The notes under the pieces were generated by a model. The model was not told the DNA's origin and made no database searches. It worked only from the letters and a program-made list of their open reading frames with translations. A stretch of DNA of 64,000 bases from Deltaproteobacteria bacterium (GTDB lineage Bacteria > Myxococcota_A > UBA9160 > UBA4427), in the NCBI GenBank assembly GCA_019310385.1, contig JAFDEK010000014.1, positions 1 through 64,000 of the forward strand, in the 5' to 3' direction. How positions within the stretch are numbered: the first letter of the stretch is position 1; the number at the start of each line of letters is the position of its first letter. Shown here one piece after another: positions 12,224 through 21,492 of this stretch. Both the position numbers and the translations under genes were made by a program.

Positions 12224-13702
12224 ATGAACCCCGCGTCCGTCTTCTCGGCTGGTGTGGCCTTGCTGGTACTGATGACTGCCCTGCTCAACGGGTGGGTCTA
12301 CGCGCTGCGCCGCCAGGAGAAGGCCCACCTGTGGCTCGCCGTGGTGGCCCTCGGGATCATGGTCCTGGCAACGGCCCGGGCGGGAGCCTACGCGAACACC
12401 GAGGTCGCTGAGGCGGAGACGTGGCAGCGCCTCGCCTTGCTCTGCATCCCCTTCGTTGTCGTGGGATTCGTGCGCTTCTCCTTTCACTTTCTCGAGCTCG
12501 AGCGTCCGTGGCTGGACCGCGCGGCCTTCCTGATCGGCGGGTTGGCGATTCTGGGCAGTGTGCAGCCGTGGCTCTTCTTCTCGGGTGAGCCCGTCCACCA
12601 TCGCATCTCGTGGCTCGGTATCGAGCACGTGGAGCCCGGCGTCTCCCTCTTCGGGACGCTGCTCTTCACCGCGATATCGGGCGTGATCCTCTACCTGATC
12701 CCCCTCTACGCCTCCCAGCTCCACCGCCTCCAGGAGGATTCGCGACTGCTCTTCATTCCCCTCTGCGTCTGGCTCTTCGCCTGCTTCAATGACATGGCGG
12801 TGTCGGGAGCGATCTACGAGGCGCCCTACCTCACCAGCTTCGGCTATGCGACCTTCATCCTGGTCTTCTCGGGCGTCCTGATCCGGCGTTTCGTGAGCTC
12901 CATGGAGGAGGCGGAGCGCACGAAGGAAGACCTCGAGGGCCTCGTGGAGGCACGCACCGAGGATTTGCGGCAGAAGGACCTGCTGCTCGCCCACGGCGAG
13001 CGCATGGCAACCATCGGGACCCTGGCCGCGGGGGTCGCCCATGAAATCAACAACCCCATCGCGTACGTGACCTCGAATCTCAACTGCCTGCAGGAGTTCT
13101 ACGGGCGGCCCGAAGAGCGCGCCGAGGCGGATGAGATCTTCGTCGAGTGCCGCGAAGGTCTGGGGCGGGTCAGCAATATCGTCGCCGAGCTCCTCGCCTT
13201 TGCACGTCCGAGCGAATCGCCGCCGCAGCTCGTCGACCTGGGCGAAGCCGTGCGGGGGATTCTGCCCATCATTCGCCACGAGGCGAAGGGTCGCGCCGAG
13301 ATCGTAATCGAGCTCGCGCAGGTGCCGCCTGTCTGGGGAGATGCCCGTGTCCTCGGGCAGGTGTGCATGAACCTGGCCATCAATGGCATCCAGTCCATTC
13401 CCAGGGGAGGCAAGGGAGACGATCGCGTCGTCCTCTCCACGTGCCGCGAAGGAGATCGAGTGGTTCTGCGCGTGAGCGATACCGGCTGCGGGATTCCCGA
13501 AGACGTGTTGCCCCGGATCTTCGACCCCTTCTTTACCACCAAGGATCAGGGCGAGGGGACGGGCCTCGGTCTGGCGATCACCCATCAGCTGGTGGCGCGC
13601 CACTCGGGCGAGATCGCGGTCGAGAGCAGTCCGGGAGGGACCACATTCCTGGTCTCGCTTCCGATCCCCGAGACCGAGGCGGCGGGTAGCCGGATCCAAT
13701 GA
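12224..13702 (+). CDS. membrane sensor histidine kinase
   Basis: The 492 aa sensor kinase has about six transmembrane helices in residues 1-220 with little periplasmic sequence, suggesting it senses within or near the membrane. A short coiled linker ('MEEAERTKEDLEGLVEARTEDLRQKD') leads to the dimerisation domain, with phospho-acceptor H273 in 'LAAGVAHEINNPIAYV'. The ATPase domain has the N box 'CMNLAINGIQSIP', G1 'VSDTGCGIPE', F box 'IFDPFFTTK' and G2 'GEGTGLGLAI', all intact. 'HEINNP' and the overall layout are those of NtrB-like/HisKA kinases. The receiver gene begins 127 bp downstream on the same strand and is its likely partner. Confidence 0.92.
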   Translation: MNPASVFSAGVALLVLMTALLNGWVYALRRQEKAHLWLAVVALGIMVLATARAGAYANTEVAEAETWQRLALLCIPFVVVGFVRFSFHFLELERPWLDRAAFLIGGLAILGSVQPWLFFSGEPVHHRISWLGIEHVEPGVSLFGTLLFTAISGVILYLIPLYASQLHRLQEDSRLLFIPLCVWLFACFNDMAVSGAIYEAPYLTSFGYATFILVFSGVLIRRFVSSMEEAERTKEDLEGLVEARTEDLRQKDLLLAHGERMATIGTLAAGVAHEINNPIAYVTSNLNCLQEFYGRPEERAEADEIFVECREGLGRVSNIVAELLAFARPSESPPQLVDLGEAVRGILPIIRHEAKGRAEIVIELAQVPPVWGDARVLGQVCMNLAINGIQSIPRGGKGDDRVVLSTCREGDRVVLRVSDTGCGIPEDVLPRIFDPFFTTKDQGEGTGLGLAITHQLVARHSGEIAVESSPGGTTFLVSLPIPETEAAGSRIQ

Positions 13703-13829
13703 TGGGGGAGGGTTCCGCTGCCACACCAGTCAACCGTCGACGGGTCGACCCCACGCGGTCAATCCTCGGCGTCCACTGGCCGATGCGTCTCTTGACCCGG
13801 ATCTCCGGGCATCTCGCGGGAGGTAGTGC

Positions 13830-14234
13830 ATGGCAGACGACCTGAGGATCGTCACCGTCGACGACAGCAGGGTCGCATTGGCTCAGCTGGAGAGTGTCGT
13901 CGACGGCGTGGAGGGCGCCGAGGTGGTGGGCAGCGTGCGCGACGGCGCCTCTGCGATTCGTGCCGTGGCGGAGCTGGAGCCCGATCTCGTCATGATGGAC
14001 ATCGTAATGCCCGACATGGACGGCCTCTCGGCACTGCGTGTCATCATGGCAAACCACCCCGAGGTCCGCGTCGCGTTGGTCACCTCCCTGGGCGGCTCGG
14101 GCAGCCACGCGGAAGAGGCCTTCCGGCTGGGCGCCATACAGGTGATCGCCAAGCCCTTCGAGCCGGAGCTCATCGAGGCCCTGGTCGAGGGCGAGCGAGA
14201 GCATCGCGACGCCGAGTCGAAGAGGGGATCGTGA
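13830..14234 (+). CDS. CheY-like single-domain response regulator
   Basis: The 134 aa protein is a stand-alone receiver domain. The acidic pocket is D11/D12 ('VTVDDSR'), the phosphorylation site D57 lies in 'MMDIVMPDMDG', the conserved Thr/Ser is in 'ALVTSLGG' and the Lys in 'VIAKPFEPEL'. No DNA-binding or enzymatic output domain follows, so it signals through protein contacts, as CheY or Spo0F does. A GGGAGG-like ribosome-binding site precedes the ATG. The stop overlaps the GTG of the next gene (GTGA), so the receiver and the CheX-like protein are probably made together. Confidence 0.93.
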   Translation: MADDLRIVTVDDSRVALAQLESVVDGVEGAEVVGSVRDGASAIRAVAELEPDLVMMDIVMPDMDGLSALRVIMANHPEVRVALVTSLGGSGSHAEEAFRLGAIQVIAKPFEPELIEALVEGEREHRDAESKRGS

Positions 14235-15064
14235 GCGTCAAGTTCTTCGGCCAGTACCTCATCGAGCAGGGCGAGATCGACGCCGCCTCGCTGCGCGAGG
14301 CCCTCGACCTCATGGAGCTCGAGAACCAGACCCTCGGCGAGCACGCCGTGGCAGCGGGCTTTGCGCGAGAGGCGGACTGCCGCCGGGTCAACGGCGAGCA
14401 GCGCCGGCTGGACCGGCCCTTCGGTGAGCTGGCCGTCGACATGGGCATCCTCAACTCGGTCGAGCTGGAGGAGCTGCTGCTGCGGCAGCAGATGAGCCGG
14501 CTCGAAGTGAGCGATGCCCTGCTGCGCCTGGGTCACGTCGTGCAGGATCGTATGGCCCTGCTGCTGGATCGCTTCAAGCAGGAGCAAGCCCCCCACGCTT
14601 GCGGCAGCGTCGAGCTGCCAGAAGGACTGCGCGGGAATCGACTCGCGCGCTCCCTCGTCGATTTGTTGCCTCGTTTCTGTGTCAGGGTGGGAGGCCTCGA
14701 GCTGAAGGTGAAGCCCCCAGTGGCCGTCACCACCCTCGACCCGCGCGATCTCGTGGCCTCCGTGGTGGTGGTCGCCAATCCGGGCGTGGAGATGGCGCTG
14801 CTGGCCGATTGCGGCTTCGGGCAGAAGCTGGCTTCGGGCATCTCGGGGCTCGACCTCTCGACCCAGCCCGTCGAGCTGGCCGTGGATGCCCTGGGCGAAT
14901 TCCTGAACGTCCTCGCCGGTAACGTGATGAGCGCCCTCGAGCAGGACGAAGGCCTGGAGTGCCGCCTCGAGGCACCCCGCTTCGGCGTGCTACCCGGGGA
15001 GGGCTACGAGTTCGAGCTGGTTTCCCTCTGCGGCGAAGCCAGCTTCGTGCTCGCTCCGTGCTGA
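14231..15064 (+). CDS. MshEN-like plus CheX-like signalling protein
   Basis: The 277 aa protein starts at a GTG overlapping the receiver gene's stop. The first half holds two repeats like the N-terminal domain of GspE/PilB/MshE ATPases, 'FGQYLIEQGEIDAASLREALD' and 'FGELAVDMGILNSVELEELLLRQQ'; in MshE such repeats bind cyclic di-GMP. The second half contains 'TQPVELAVDALGEFLNVLAGNVMSALEQDEG', which resembles the catalytic helix of CheX/CheC phosphatases (E-x2-x-N). A CheX-like domain beside a CheY-like receiver suggests that it dephosphorylates or reads out that receiver. Domain assignment is from motif resemblance only; the c-di-GMP link is inference. Confidence 0.65.
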   Translation: MSVKFFGQYLIEQGEIDAASLREALDLMELENQTLGEHAVAAGFAREADCRRVNGEQRRLDRPFGELAVDMGILNSVELEELLLRQQMSRLEVSDALLRLGHVVQDRMALLLDRFKQEQAPHACGSVELPEGLRGNRLARSLVDLLPRFCVRVGGLELKVKPPVAVTTLDPRDLVASVVVVANPGVEMALLADCGFGQKLASGISGLDLSTQPVELAVDALGEFLNVLAGNVMSALEQDEGLECRLEAPRFGVLPGEGYEFELVSLCGEASFVLAPC

Positions 15065-16364: not shown

Positions 16365-16390
16365 GATCCGCCTCCGATCGGAGGCGGATC
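16365..16390. repeat. 26-bp perfect palindrome
   Basis: 'GATCCGCCTCCG' and its exact reverse complement meet without a spacer ('GATCCGCCTCCGATCGGAGG...'). It lies between the divergent MFS and zinc-ribbon genes, 60-80 bases from each start, a position that suits a dimeric repressor site better than a terminator. No regulator gene is adjacent. Confidence 0.85.
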
Positions 16391-16450: not shown

Positions 16451-17137
16451 ATGTTCTGCAACGCCTGTGGCACGCGAGTCGGCGGCTTCGATCGCAACTG
16501 TCCCAACTGCGGGCGCGGTCTCAAGGCGCGCGGGTCCGGGAGCAGCATGTCGAAGACCAATGAGCCCTCGGCGTCCCAGTCCCTCTCTCCCTCGTCCGCC
16601 CAGATGCCCAATCCCAGCAAGTCGTCCCTCGACCCGAAGCCCGCCGCCAAGGGCAAGCCCAAGTCGGCTGCCCGGCCTGCGGGCTCCAAGGCCAAGCAGG
16701 CTGCTCGTCCTCCGGCCGCGGCTCCGGTCGTCTCCGGCGGTGGCGCCCCCGACATCCGGAGCCTGCTGTGGGAGACACCCGAGGAGTTGGAACCGGGTCT
16801 CAGCGTCTACCAGGACGCCGAGTCGAAGCCCGTCGGGATCCGCTACGAGAGCGAGGTGGGGCAGATCGATCTGCTGGCCCGCGACAACGGGGGCGGCCTC
16901 GTCGTGGTGATGGTCGCGGACGAGAGTGAGAAGAAGGGCAAGGAGCTGGTGTCCGACGTCCTCGAGCGGATCGGCTGGGTGCGGCTGCAGGTCGCCGAGT
17001 CCGGGCAGGAGGTGCGCGCCATCGTCCTCACCGGCTCCGTTCCCGACGATCTCAGCTACGCGGCGGCCGCGGTTTCCGGGACGGTCGCGTTCAAGACCTA
17101 TCGCGTTGCGGTCGCCTTCGAAGACGTCATCGTCTGA
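16451..17137 (+). CDS. zinc-ribbon protein with degenerate NucS-like domain
   Basis: A 228 aa cytoplasmic protein. Residues 3-20 form a zinc ribbon with paired cysteines (C3/C6, C17/C20). Residues 30-98 are a low-complexity Ser/Pro/Lys/Ala linker. Residues 105-228 resemble the C-terminal nuclease domain of NucS/EndoMS-type PD-(D/E)xK enzymes: 'VGQIDLLARDNGGGLVVV' keeps the Asp (D140) and 'LERIGWVRLQVAESGQEVRAIVLTG' matches the following helix and strand. The E-x-K triad, however, is replaced by 'MVA' at residues 154-156, so nuclease activity is unlikely. It may bind nucleic acid or protein through the ribbon. The fold assignment is from motif pattern only. Confidence 0.6.
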   Translation: MFCNACGTRVGGFDRNCPNCGRGLKARGSGSSMSKTNEPSASQSLSPSSAQMPNPSKSSLDPKPAAKGKPKSAARPAGSKAKQAARPPAAAPVVSGGGAPDIRSLLWETPEELEPGLSVYQDAESKPVGIRYESEVGQIDLLARDNGGGLVVVMVADESEKKGKELVSDVLERIGWVRLQVAESGQEVRAIVLTGSVPDDLSYAAAAVSGTVAFKTYRVAVAFEDVIV

Positions 17138-17312
17138 CACCGGCGCCCTCCTTGGGAGCTCCCGGGCGCGGCTCTCGGCCGTGCGCCCCCGTCACGCCTT
17201 CACTCACGCCTACGCCCGCCTTCACCTCGAGCTCGTCTACACGCTAAGCTCGGTCAATGCACGAACTTCGTTCCAGGGAGATCGCGCGCGCCGACGCCGG
17301 CGCGCCTCCACC

Positions 17313-19313
17313 ATGGCACGCGCCGGATGGCTTCCCCTCGCCCTGGTGATGTTGGCCGGCGCCTGCGCGTCGCCCGCTGGGCCGGAAGGCAGGCCCAGGG
17401 AGCCCGGCGGCGAGCCGGGAAGGGCGGCTGTCAGCGCGCGGGGTGACGACGGCGCTGCGGTCGCGGCTCGCGACGAAGAGGGGGCCACGCCGCTTCATCT
17501 GGCTGCGGGTCTTCCCCCGTCGTCGGCCGATCCGGCCGAGGCCTCCGACGGGGCGGCGGCCCGGCGCGAAGGGGCCGTCGAGCAGCTTCTCGCGGCCGGG
17601 GCGCCCATCGAGGCTCGGGACTCGCGGGGGCGCACACCTCTCCACTACGCAGCCCGGGCGGGCAACGGCGACGCCGTGCGCGCGCTCTTCGTAGCGGGTG
17701 CCGAGCTCGATGCACAGGACGATTCCGGTGCGACGCCCCTGCTTCTCGCCATCGTCGAGGGACAGAGCGCACTGGCGAAGCAGCTCATCGATCTCGGAGC
17801 CGCCCTCGACATTGCAGCCGAAATCGGAGGCAAGGGGGGCAGGACCGCCCTGCACCAGGCGGTCGTGGCCGCCAGCCCCAAGCTCGTCGAGGCGCTGCTC
17901 GAGAACGGTGCTGATCCCAACCTGGGCGACGCCGCGGGCGACACACCGCTGCACCTCGCTGTTCGGGAAGGGAGTCCCCGTCTGGCCGCCCTGTTGCTCG
18001 AGAAGGGTGCGGACCCCGGTATCGAGAATGCCGGGGGAAGCAGTCCACGCGAGATGGCGCGGGAGCGCAAGCGGGATCCGACCGCCCGTCTCGTCGAGGC
18101 CTCCGCCTCGCCGCTGCACCGTGCGGCCGCGCAGGGGGATATCGAGCAGATGCAGAAGCTGCTCGAGCACGGCACGGATGTGGACCGCCGTGACGTCAAC
18201 GGAGCGACTCCCCTGGCGGCAGCCGCTGCCGCGGGCCAGGTGAAGGTGGTGGCCCTGCTGATCGAGCGCGGCGCCGACGTGGACCTCGCCGACGAAGGTG
18301 CTGCCACGCCGCTCCACGGCGCGGCTCGGGCCGGCAGCCTCGAGGTCATCGAGCAGCTGCTTGCGGCCGGTGCAGCGGTCGATCCCCGGAATGCCAGGGA
18401 GGTGACGCCCCTGCTCGCCGCGATGGAGGCGGGCCACGCCGCGGTGGCGGCTGCGCTGCTCGAAGCGGGAGCCGATCCCCGATGGACCAGCCGCCACGGA
18501 GAGACGCCGCTATTTCTCGCGATTCAGCGAGGAGAGGCCGCGTTGCTCGAAGCCCTCGTGGAACGGGGGATCGAGGTAGACCGCCGCCTCGTCAACGGCT
18601 CGACGCCTCTGGCGTTTGCGGCGGCGAGTGGTCGCCCGGAGCTGGTCGCCCTGTTGCTCGCCGCCGGTGCCGAGGTCGTCGTGACCGATGGCTCCGGTCG
18701 CACGCCTCTCTTCCTGGCCATCAAGCAGGGATCTCCGGAGACCGTGGCGCTGCTGCTCGACCACGGCGCTGACCCCCAGGCGCGGCTCTCGGGCGAGCTC
18801 ACCCCGCTGCTCCTCGCCCTCCAGGAGGGCCACGGCGATGTCGCCCTGTCGTTGCTCAGTCCATCGACGGATCTGGCCGCGACGAATCTGCGCGGTGACA
18901 CGCCGCTCGTGGTTGCGGCGGAGACGGGTCAGCGTCGGGTCGTCGGCGCGCTGCTGGGCGAAGAAGCGGCGGGCGCCCTCGGCGGCGGCGCCGAGCCGCC
19001 TACGGAGGCGGAGCTCTCCAAGGCGTTGTTGCGGACCCTCGTCGGCATGGAGCGGGTGGCCCGGCCGCTATCGCAGAGGCGAGGCACGCCCGGGGTTGCG
19101 GTGCGTCGACACGGCCCCGCCCTGGCCGCGGAGCCGCTCGAGCGGTACCGCGCCGTTGCCCGTGCGCTTCTCAGCGCGGGGGCGAAACCCGACCTCGAGC
19201 GGGACGCTTCCGGGAGGACCGCCAGGCAGCTGGCGAGTGCGCTTGGCGAGGAGGAGCTCCTCGAAGCGATGGAGGATTCGAACGCTGAGCCCGAACCCCT
19301 GTCGCTCGATTGA
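17313..19313 (+). CDS. ankyrin-repeat lipoprotein
   Basis: The start is the ATG at 17313, giving 666 aa; the track ORF from 16926 is read-through. The first 22 residues are a signal peptide with a possible lipobox ('LVMLAGACAS'), so the protein is probably anchored in the cell envelope. From about residue 50 to 560 it is built of ankyrin repeats of about 33 residues, with cores such as 'GRTPLHYAARAGNGDAVRALFVAGAELDAQD' and 'GATPLHGAARAGSLEVIEQLLAAGAAVD'. Around 15 copies can be counted, the last ones degenerate. Ankyrin arrays bind proteins; the partner is unknown. A second ankyrin lipoprotein is encoded at 31.6-33.0 kb. Confidence 0.9.
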   Translation: MARAGWLPLALVMLAGACASPAGPEGRPREPGGEPGRAAVSARGDDGAAVAARDEEGATPLHLAAGLPPSSADPAEASDGAAARREGAVEQLLAAGAPIEARDSRGRTPLHYAARAGNGDAVRALFVAGAELDAQDDSGATPLLLAIVEGQSALAKQLIDLGAALDIAAEIGGKGGRTALHQAVVAASPKLVEALLENGADPNLGDAAGDTPLHLAVREGSPRLAALLLEKGADPGIENAGGSSPREMARERKRDPTARLVEASASPLHRAAAQGDIEQMQKLLEHGTDVDRRDVNGATPLAAAAAAGQVKVVALLIERGADVDLADEGAATPLHGAARAGSLEVIEQLLAAGAAVDPRNAREVTPLLAAMEAGHAAVAAALLEAGADPRWTSRHGETPLFLAIQRGEAALLEALVERGIEVDRRLVNGSTPLAFAAASGRPELVALLLAAGAEVVVTDGSGRTPLFLAIKQGSPETVALLLDHGADPQARLSGELTPLLLALQEGHGDVALSLLSPSTDLAATNLRGDTPLVVAAETGQRRVVGALLGEEAAGALGGGAEPPTEAELSKALLRTLVGMERVARPLSQRRGTPGVAVRRHGPALAAEPLERYRAVARALLSAGAKPDLERDASGRTARQLASALGEEELLEAMEDSNAEPEPLSLD

Positions 19314-19337: not shown

Positions 19338-21359
19338 CTATGGAGCCGCGGAGCCTGGTGGCGGAGTCGTCGCCGCGGCGGCGCTCGGGTCGGGTGCCGC
19401 CGCTGGCTGGGACGGGACCTCGGAGGGCAGCGCGAGGTGCTCGTTCACCACGGGCTCTGGCATGGAGCTGCTTTCGTGGACGATGGGGGCGTGGACGATG
19501 GGGGACGTCGCCGGCGCCGGCTTGCTGGTGGATGAGGCCGGCGCTTCGCCGAGGCTCGCGCCTGGCCGAGCGGGGCTGGCTCCGCCCACGCTGTCGGCCT
19601 GCTGGGCGGGCGTGCTCTGAGGTGGGTCGACGGGCTGCACCGGCACTGGCTTCGCCGCTGAGCGGGCTGCGGTCGGGGCCGACTCGCTCGACGGGCCGCC
19701 CGCGGCGGCTCCGATCACCGCTCTCACATCCTCTGGCTTCACGGCCTGCAGCGGCGACCTCTGCGGCTCGGGCTGAATCGGCGCGGCGTTCGCGACCTCC
19801 GCCGCCTCGGCGAGAGGCAGCGTCGGAAGATCCTCCGGCAGCGCCGCCGGCGCCTCGTCAATGGCGTCGAGCACCGCAGCCACGCTGCCGGGTCTGGCCG
19901 TTCCCGCGCTGTTGGGCCTGGCCGTTGCGGCGTCGCTGGGCGCGGGCGGTCGAGCGAGCTGCAGGGTCTCGCGGGCCTGCTCGGGGAGGAGAGTGTGGAT
20001 GAAATCCGTCGGGTCACCCTGACGCAGGTATCCGGCGCCGGCCAGGGCAGCGAGCAGGAGCAGCAGCAGCCGCGTGTGATCTCGTCTTGCTGGCTTCCTC
20101 CGGCTGCGACTGCTCCCGGCGGCAGGTGCGGGCCGGTGCGTGCGGATACCCGAAGCGGGAACGCTGCCTCGCCCGGGGGAGTTGGCATTTCCCAGGTCGC
20201 TCTCGTCGGCCAGCTCGAGGGAGGAGTGGGTCGCCGATGCCTGGGGCGTGACGAAGGGTTCGTTGCTCAGCTCGAGCTTGGAGCTCGCGCTCCCTGCGCC
20301 CGCTTTGGCGAAGGGGTTGTCGGCCAGCTCGAGCTGCGAGGGGTCGGGAGGCGGTGCGGGCGGGGGCCGCGGCTCGCTCCGGGGTGCGGGTGCATCGGCG
20401 CGGGGCTCGTGGGTCGGACGGCGGGTCTCCCTGCGCGCGCTCTCGACGTAGGGGGTGGCGTCGAGCAGGGACTGGGCGGAGAGGCCGCTCTGTCCGCTCA
20501 GGCTGCCGCTCATGTTCATGCTGGGCGAGCTCTCCTCGAAGCTCATGTCGTCCAAGGGAGGTAGGGCCGCTGCGATCGTTTCGTCGAAGAGCTCCTCGAC
20601 CAGCTCCGAGCCGATGGCCGCGAGGCCCCGGGAACTCGCCTCGCCGAGAGCCCTCTCACACAGGTCGTTCACCGCGCTGGGGACGCCGCCGGTGAGGCGG
20701 TGGATGGCGAGGCAGGCCTGGGGACTGAAGAGGTCGCCGCCCGGCCAACCCGCCTTCTGCAGACGCTTCTCGATGTAGTGGTGAATGCCCTGGGCGGGGA
20801 TCGGCGCGAAGCGCAGCTGCAGGGTCGTGAGCTGATCGAGCCACCAGAGCAGCGGGATGTCGGCTCCGGCCGGAGCGGCCTCGAGATTCGCGAAGAGAAC
20901 GCAGTGGAGCAGCTGGCGGTCGTCGTCGTCCTGATAACGCATCAGGGTGTCGAGGTGTTCCAGGGCTTCTCGGCTGAGGCGCTCGGCCTGATCGATGGCG
21001 ATGATCAGGTAGCGGTGGTCGCCCCGGGCGGCCAACATGCTTCCACGCGAGAGTGATCCGCCCTCGAGGCCGAGCCTGCGGACGATGATGGTGCGGACCT
21101 CCGGCCATGGACGGTCGGGGTTCATGATCTGCACCAGCTGCGCCGAGTCGCTGAGGAGCTTGGGGAGGGCGCGGCACAGGCTCGTCTTGCCCAGGCCCTC
21201 GCCGCCGCCTACGCAGATGCGTGGTGCTCCCTGCTCCAGGCCCTGCTTGATCTCCTGGAAGGCTTTGCGAAGGGCCTTGGTGCCGAGCACGACGCCGCCG
21301 CTTCCCTTGGCGTCGAAGGGCGACTTCTGGAGCTCGAAGAATTTGAGGTACGACTCCAT
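19338..21359 (-). CDS. ExeA/GspA-like AAA ATPase with membrane anchor
   Basis: The 673 aa protein begins 'MESYLKFFELQKSPFDAKG', the normal N-terminus of the ExeA/GspA-type AAA ATPases. Walker A is 'GGEGLGKTS' (52-60), Walker B 'YLIIAIDQAE', and sensor and lid sequence 'FAPIPAQGIHHYIEKRLQKAGW' and 'LTGGVPSAVNDLCERAL' follow. A Pro/Ala/Ser-rich segment with three 'LELA(D)NPF'-like repeats links this to a single transmembrane helix ('HTRLLLLLLAALAGAGYL'). A long low-complexity Pro/Ala-rich tail of about 230 residues presumably lies in the periplasm. ExeA with ExeB helps insert the secretin of type II secretion into peptidoglycan; the usual peptidoglycan-binding domain is not recognisable here. 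The start ATG at 21359 fits the family. Confidence 0.8.
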   Translation of the reverse strand: MESYLKFFELQKSPFDAKGSGGVVLGTKALRKAFQEIKQGLEQGAPRICVGGGEGLGKTSLCRALPKLLSDSAQLVQIMNPDRPWPEVRTIIVRRLGLEGGSLSRGSMLAARGDHRYLIIAIDQAERLSREALEHLDTLMRYQDDDDRQLLHCVLFANLEAAPAGADIPLLWWLDQLTTLQLRFAPIPAQGIHHYIEKRLQKAGWPGGDLFSPQACLAIHRLTGGVPSAVNDLCERALGEASSRGLAAIGSELVEELFDETIAAALPPLDDMSFEESSPSMNMSGSLSGQSGLSAQSLLDATPYVESARRETRRPTHEPRADAPAPRSEPRPPPAPPPDPSQLELADNPFAKAGAGSASSKLELSNEPFVTPQASATHSSLELADESDLGNANSPGRGSVPASGIRTHRPAPAAGSSRSRRKPARRDHTRLLLLLLAALAGAGYLRQGDPTDFIHTLLPEQARETLQLARPPAPSDAATARPNSAGTARPGSVAAVLDAIDEAPAALPEDLPTLPLAEAAEVANAAPIQPEPQRSPLQAVKPEDVRAVIGAAAGGPSSESAPTAARSAAKPVPVQPVDPPQSTPAQQADSVGGASPARPGASLGEAPASSTSKPAPATSPIVHAPIVHESSSMPEPVVNEHLALPSEVPSQPAAAPDPSAAAATTPPPGSAAP
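19476..19505. repeat. 15-bp direct duplication in the ExeA-like gene tail
   Basis: 'GTGGACGATGGGGGC' (19476-19490) is followed directly by 'GTGGACGATGGGGGA' (19491-19505). It keeps frame and lies about 46 codons before the end of the gene, in the low-complexity tail. Confidence 0.85.
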
Positions 21360-21492
21360 TGGACCCTGCTTCCGCCCTAGCTCGGCTCCCCGCGTATTCG
21401 GCATTCCCGCGGCTTTTCATAAGCAAATCCGGGCATTCAGGGCACGATCCCGCACGCAGCGCGCGGGGGCCGACCCAGGTAGGCTCCCGGGC

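Follow-up and report, generated by a model that had tools for sequence, protein, structure and literature searches.

The gene and its product

The sequence analysed here (the window) is a stretch of 64,000 nucleotides. An open reading frame at positions 16451–17137 of its forward strand encodes a protein of 228 amino acids, with a purine-rich stretch immediately 5' of the ATG. From N- to C-terminus the protein consists of a zinc ribbon, a linker of low complexity and a domain that resembles the nuclease domain of NucS (Pfam NucS_C). Its neighbors in the window are a divergent MFS transporter gene and the genes of an ankyrin-repeat protein and an AAA protein; this is not a defence-gene neighborhood. 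The features of the gene are as follows, with counts taken from an alignment of 29 full proteins, all from one order.

16451..17137, + strand: gene for zinc ribbon, linker and NucS_C-like putative pseudonuclease domain, 228 aa
16451..16516, + strand: N-terminal zinc ribbon, residues 1–22, with Cys3, 6, 17 and 20 invariant in the family; DZR and Zn_Ribbon_1 matches
16517..16747, + strand: low-complexity linker, residues 23–99, from the alignment; the fastest-evolving part by dN/dS
16583..16594, + strand: short conserved linker motif LSPS, residues 45–48; L[SP]P[SA] across the family linkers
16748..17134, + strand: NucS_C-like PD-(D/E)XK domain, residues 100–228, from profile and homologue matches
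16868..16870, + strand: Asp140, retained and aligned with the catalytic Asp of NucS_C in 2vld and 5gke; Asp in 29/29
16910..16918, + strand: M154-V155-A156 at the E-x-K position; Glu 0/29, Lys 0/29
16955..16969, + strand: D169...R173, replacing the QxxxY of intact-motif relatives; Gln 1/29, Tyr 0/29

The protein begins with MFCNACGTRVGGFDRNCPNCGR, a CxxC/CPxC zinc ribbon of pattern CxxC-(10)-CPxCG. The two CxxC pairs that supply the four metal-ligand cysteines are present in all 29 members, and Pro18 and Gly21 are also invariant. At E ≤ 1, DZR is matched by all 29 proteins and Zn_Ribbon_1 by 26, the window protein's own matches all lying below the Pfam cut-off. The ribbon is of the same form as the N-terminal modules of DZR and Zn_Ribbon_1, with the distinction that here it is fused to a putative pseudonuclease.

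The linker is rich in S, P, K and A in the window protein, and its length ranges from 68 to 205 residues across the family. The motif L[SP]P[SA] occurs in 20 of the 29 linkers, in 19 of them at 20–26 residues past the zinc ribbon. Shuffled linkers give a mean of 1.6 and a maximum of 6 of 29, a comparison that is indicative only, the sequences being related. A second, acidic-hydrophobic motif [DE][ILV]x[LMV] (e.g. EEEIEMAL, EIELPLDEEV) is found in 18 of the 29 linkers, including those of L025, L026, L028, L019, L020 and L034 (shuffled mean 3.9, maximum 11); on reading, the window linker does not contain it.

The C-terminal domain of about 130 residues contains GQIDLLARDNGGGLVVVMVA and IGWVR, and is the conserved part of the alignment, in contrast to the length-variable linker.

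The NucS_C-like domain and its active site

An earlier note on this DNA had aligned the C-terminal residues by eye with the NucS/EndoMS nuclease domain. The strings that it quoted, VGQIDLLARDNGGGLVVV, IGWVR and MVA (residues 154–156), are all present in the protein. The homology is weak for the single sequence and clear across homologues. Alone, the window protein matches NCBIfam NucS with E = 5e-4 and Pfam NucS_C with E = 0.19, both below the curated cut-offs. Pfam NucS_C is matched at E ≤ 1 by 21 of the 29 members, with a best value of 2.3e-7. Used as a query, the domain of a relative with intact motifs, also of this phylum (locus L058, genome G207), finds the window protein with 37% identity and E = 2.9e-15. 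L058 consists of DUF7669 and NucS_C (Pfam 3.3e-13) and has the ID, ELK and GQVLRY motifs intact; the words 'intact' and 'active' refer here to the presence of the motifs in the sequence. Comparison of the family profile with two intact-motif relatives gave a probability of 99.4%. Proteins annotated 'endonuclease NucS domain-containing protein' in plasmid records from Hydrogenophaga, Pseudomonas and Paracoccus align with residues 101–226, with E down to 6e-11. The PADLOC candidate PDC-S02 is matched by the window protein at E = 2.1e-8, and by intact relatives at up to 2e-45.

A profile search of the PDB restricted to the domain returned just NucS (2vld) and EndoMS (5gke), at weak E values of 0.1–0.2, together with one coiled-coil artefact, and the alignment to these structures places Asp140 at the catalytic Asp and MVA at E-x-K. 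The corresponding search with the full-length alignment was swamped by zinc-finger and low-complexity matches, and a PDB sequence search with the single window protein gave no match. A single-sequence AlphaFold model has a pLDDT of 45; its order of secondary structure, H-E-E-E-E-H-E, fits a PD-(D/E)XK core with low confidence, and a Foldseek search with this model was uninformative. At the level of sequence comparison the homology of the domain to the NucS_C PD-(D/E)XK domain is confirmed, and an alpha-beta-beta-beta-alpha-beta PD-(D/E)XK fold is predicted from that homology.

The active site is altered throughout the family. The position of the Glu of E-x-K is occupied by M (18), L (3), K (2) or single other residues, and that of the Lys by A (13), P (5), V (5) or others, so that neither Glu nor Lys is found at its place in any of the 29 proteins. 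The earlier note had proposed conservation of this loss among relatives as its own test, and it is indeed conserved; none of the 29 members has an intact triad at another position. E-x-K and QxxxY are both present in all five intact relatives compared. The note's description of a domain 'without its catalytic triad' is right for E-x-K, and QxxxY has gone too, but it is slightly too strong, as Asp140 and the motif-I Glu (Glu114, in 28/29) are kept. Also conserved are the helix GWVRKH (W176 in 28/29, H180 in 27/29), an invariant R189 and a nearly invariant Y203. In Sulfolobus EndoMS the mutants D159A, E173A and K175A are catalytically deficient (PMC7736090). Given that E-x-K is lost family-wide, and that the same positions are mutated in catalytically deficient EndoMS, the C-terminal domain is very likely to be catalytically inactive. 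Since Asp140 and the motif-I Glu are retained, metal binding or some unusual residual activity is possible.

Distribution, selection and ancestry of the family

Homologues are found in 31 of 61 genomes (the window's own and 60 relatives) and in 18 of 36 genera, so the window protein is more than a chance occurrence; genus g10 and families f4, f5, f6 and f8 are among the non-carriers. Among 284 genomes sampled across the phylum, the complete architecture of zinc ribbon, linker and domain was confined to the window's own order; the distant hits were two intact-motif nucleases (G207 and G073) and two matches to zinc ribbon and linker only. One apparent member lacking the zinc ribbon (L032) proved to be a contig-end artefact: a second contig from that genome carries a matching ribbon at its end. 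A scan of genome contigs with the single protein as query gave only a match to zinc ribbon and linker. No relatives were found in viral contigs in two scans using intact relatives as queries, and the family is undescribed in the open-access literature searched.

Pairwise dN/dS values are 0.04–0.24 for the dead domain, 0.00–0.23 for the zinc ribbon and 0.23–0.65 for the linker. These values indicate purifying selection on the dead domain; this rules out a decaying pseudogene and points to a second, non-catalytic use of the NucS_C fold. In a maximum-likelihood tree the family splits from the five intact-motif relatives with support of 100/99, and within it the clusters follow genus and, in part, family. 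This single split, together with the grouping by genus, fits one loss of the motifs and largely vertical descent. Resolution along the backbone of the tree is poor, which leaves room for transfers inside the order. Most simply, E-x-K and QxxxY would have been lost once, before the order diversified, with mainly vertical inheritance thereafter.

The earlier note supposed that the protein derives from a repair nuclease, and here the comparisons point elsewhere. As judged by sequence, the intact-motif proteins nearest to it belong with the stand-alone NucS_C nucleases (DUF7669-NucS_C type; PDC-S02) and not with mismatch-repair NucS. The whole C-terminal domain of the window protein aligns with them at roughly 30–41% identity, starting at the motif-I region and continuing past ID(L/I)LA, GWV, VRG(I/V) and RYA to the end. 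The window family differs from them in lacking E-x-K and QxxxY, and in having a zinc ribbon where they have DUF7669 or other N-terminal domains. It is also order-specific and mainly vertically inherited, and in the window it is not beside restriction-modification genes, unlike several of the stand-alone proteins. The intact relative in Hydrogenophaga adjoins a DNA methyltransferase gene, that in Pseudomonas an IS21 transposase as well as an abortive-infection gene, and that in Paracoccus is flanked on its two sides by a methyltransferase gene and a restriction S-subunit gene. An intact-motif nuclease in the latter arrangement (L122, 739–1818 in NZ_CP067132.1) overlaps its flanking DNA methyltransferase and restriction S-subunit genes by a few bases, and the overlap with both suggests that it belongs to that restriction operon.

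NucS recognises its substrate through an N-terminal DNA-binding and dimerisation domain, and carries a C-terminal sliding-clamp motif [E/K][L/Y][T/R]LF (PMC8228993). The C-terminal domain of the window protein is homologous to that of NucS/EndoMS, with the catalytic Asp aligned, but the protein lacks the N-terminal domain (residues 1–99 are ribbon and linker, with no Pfam N-domain match) as well as E-x-K. On reading the alignment, the clamp motif was not found at the C-termini of the family, the window protein ending in VAVAFEDVIV. The window genome encodes MutS; it is 88% complete, so that gene absences in it are provisional. The presence of MutS, and the absence of the NucS N-domain, E-x-K and the clamp motif from the protein, rule out a role in mismatch repair.

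From the neighborhoods of the intact relatives and the PDC-S02 matches, a defence ancestry is likelier than a repair ancestry. We consider defence ancestry of the domain to be probable, PDC-S02 being a candidate system only and the sample of neighborhoods small. On these data the domain was more probably recruited from a defence-type nuclease than from mismatch repair; the ancestor may have been a stand-alone, probably defence-associated nuclease of the NucS_C/PDC-S02 type. Automatic annotation may call such proteins 'endonuclease NucS domain-containing' despite the family-wide loss of the cutting residues.

Proposed role and genomic surroundings

The domain is strongly acidic, with a mean pI of 4.5, a mean net charge of about −11 and a net charge of −8.3 per 100 residues. 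The neighboring open reading frames (n = 206) have a median of −1.4 per 100 residues, and 3% are as acidic as the domain. The zinc ribbon is slightly basic (mean net +2.7). The acidity of the domain favors protein binding over DNA binding. Yet the intact relatives are also mildly acidic, if less so (net −1.5 to −7.3 per 100 residues, pI 4.9–5.4), so acidity alone is compatible with binding of DNA by the domain.

On balance it is fairly probable that the gene encodes a clade-specific pseudonuclease, descended from a defence-type NucS_C protein and now a non-catalytic binding module. The acidic domain would most likely dock a protein partner. A second partner, either protein or nucleic acid, might be contacted by the small basic zinc ribbon, which the flexible linker with its LSPS motif tethers to the domain. 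A tethered, two-ended protein adaptor is the simplest reading, and one that we favor with some reserve. A more specific proposal is a single domestication, in the order, of a nuclease domain of the phage-defence type, giving a dead, vertically inherited housekeeping adaptor fused to the ribbon and with a conserved docking motif in the linker. This is tentative, and we would put it at somewhat short of even. If true, it would provide a route from a defence nuclease to a host regulatory protein.

The domain might instead retain affinity for DNA without cutting it, in which case the protein, with its ribbon, would be a DNA-bound regulator or a shield of specific DNA structures. The nuclease ancestry is consistent with this, as are the conserved basic and aromatic helix with W176 and H180 and the invariant R189, and zinc ribbons are able to bind nucleic acid. 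However, the charge and pI of the domain argue against it, and the protein has no counterpart of the N-terminal domain used by NucS for substrate recognition. We regard such a DNA-binding pseudonuclease as unlikely, and nucleic-acid binding by the domain is in general doubtful to the same degree. It is very unlikely that the protein has remained catalytic by means of a relocated or atypical active site, in which Glu114 and Asp140 would act together with other conserved polar residues (His180, Arg189, Tyr203). Migration of active-site residues is known in the PD-(D/E)XK superfamily, the two acids are kept, and H180, R189 and Y203 are nearly invariant. But neither a conserved Lys nor a second acid is present close to the E-x-K strand, QxxxY is lost too, and equivalents of R189 and Y203 occur in the intact L058, so these two look structural and not newly catalytic.

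Paralogous dead copies often regulate active ones, and given the defence-type neighborhoods of the intact relatives the domain could be imagined as a decoy or immunity-like regulator that mimics active NucS_C-like nucleases and blocks or heterodimerises with them. This is highly improbable: no NucS_C domain exceeds the cut-off in the window genome, which is 88% complete, and the one separate intact-motif NucS_C protein among the 60 relatives (G047) is in a genome lacking the family. Finally, the very weak single-sequence Pfam score might have indicated a chance resemblance or a decaying pseudogene. That explanation is refuted by the match to the intact-motif relative, the spread of homologues over 18 of 36 genera and the purifying selection.

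Across the 20 neighborhoods compared, of which the window alone was annotated gene by gene, no shared neighbors were found beyond close genera, and neither a conserved operon beyond the nearest genera nor a binding partner was found. Directly downstream on the same strand is the ankyrin-repeat gene (17208–19313, about 700 aa, Ank_2 E = 2.7e-83); its pairing with the pseudonuclease gene, and the AAA protein beyond, are kept in four genomes of one genus (g5). The latter is an AAA_22 ATPase (19338–21404, − strand, E = 9.5e-9) with a long Pro/Ala-rich C-terminal part containing repeated LELADNPF-like motifs. Between the divergent MFS gene and the pseudonuclease gene, at 16365–16390, is a perfect 26-bp palindrome, GATCCGCCTCCGATCGGAGGCGGATC, which lies 60 bp upstream of the latter's start. 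The genome holds no second copy of the 22-bp core at up to three mismatches, and a search upstream of 16 relatives gave nothing comparable; the palindrome may be either operator-like or a terminator. Elsewhere in the window, at 12224–15064, are a 7TM-sensor histidine kinase, a stand-alone response regulator and a further same-strand open reading frame downstream.
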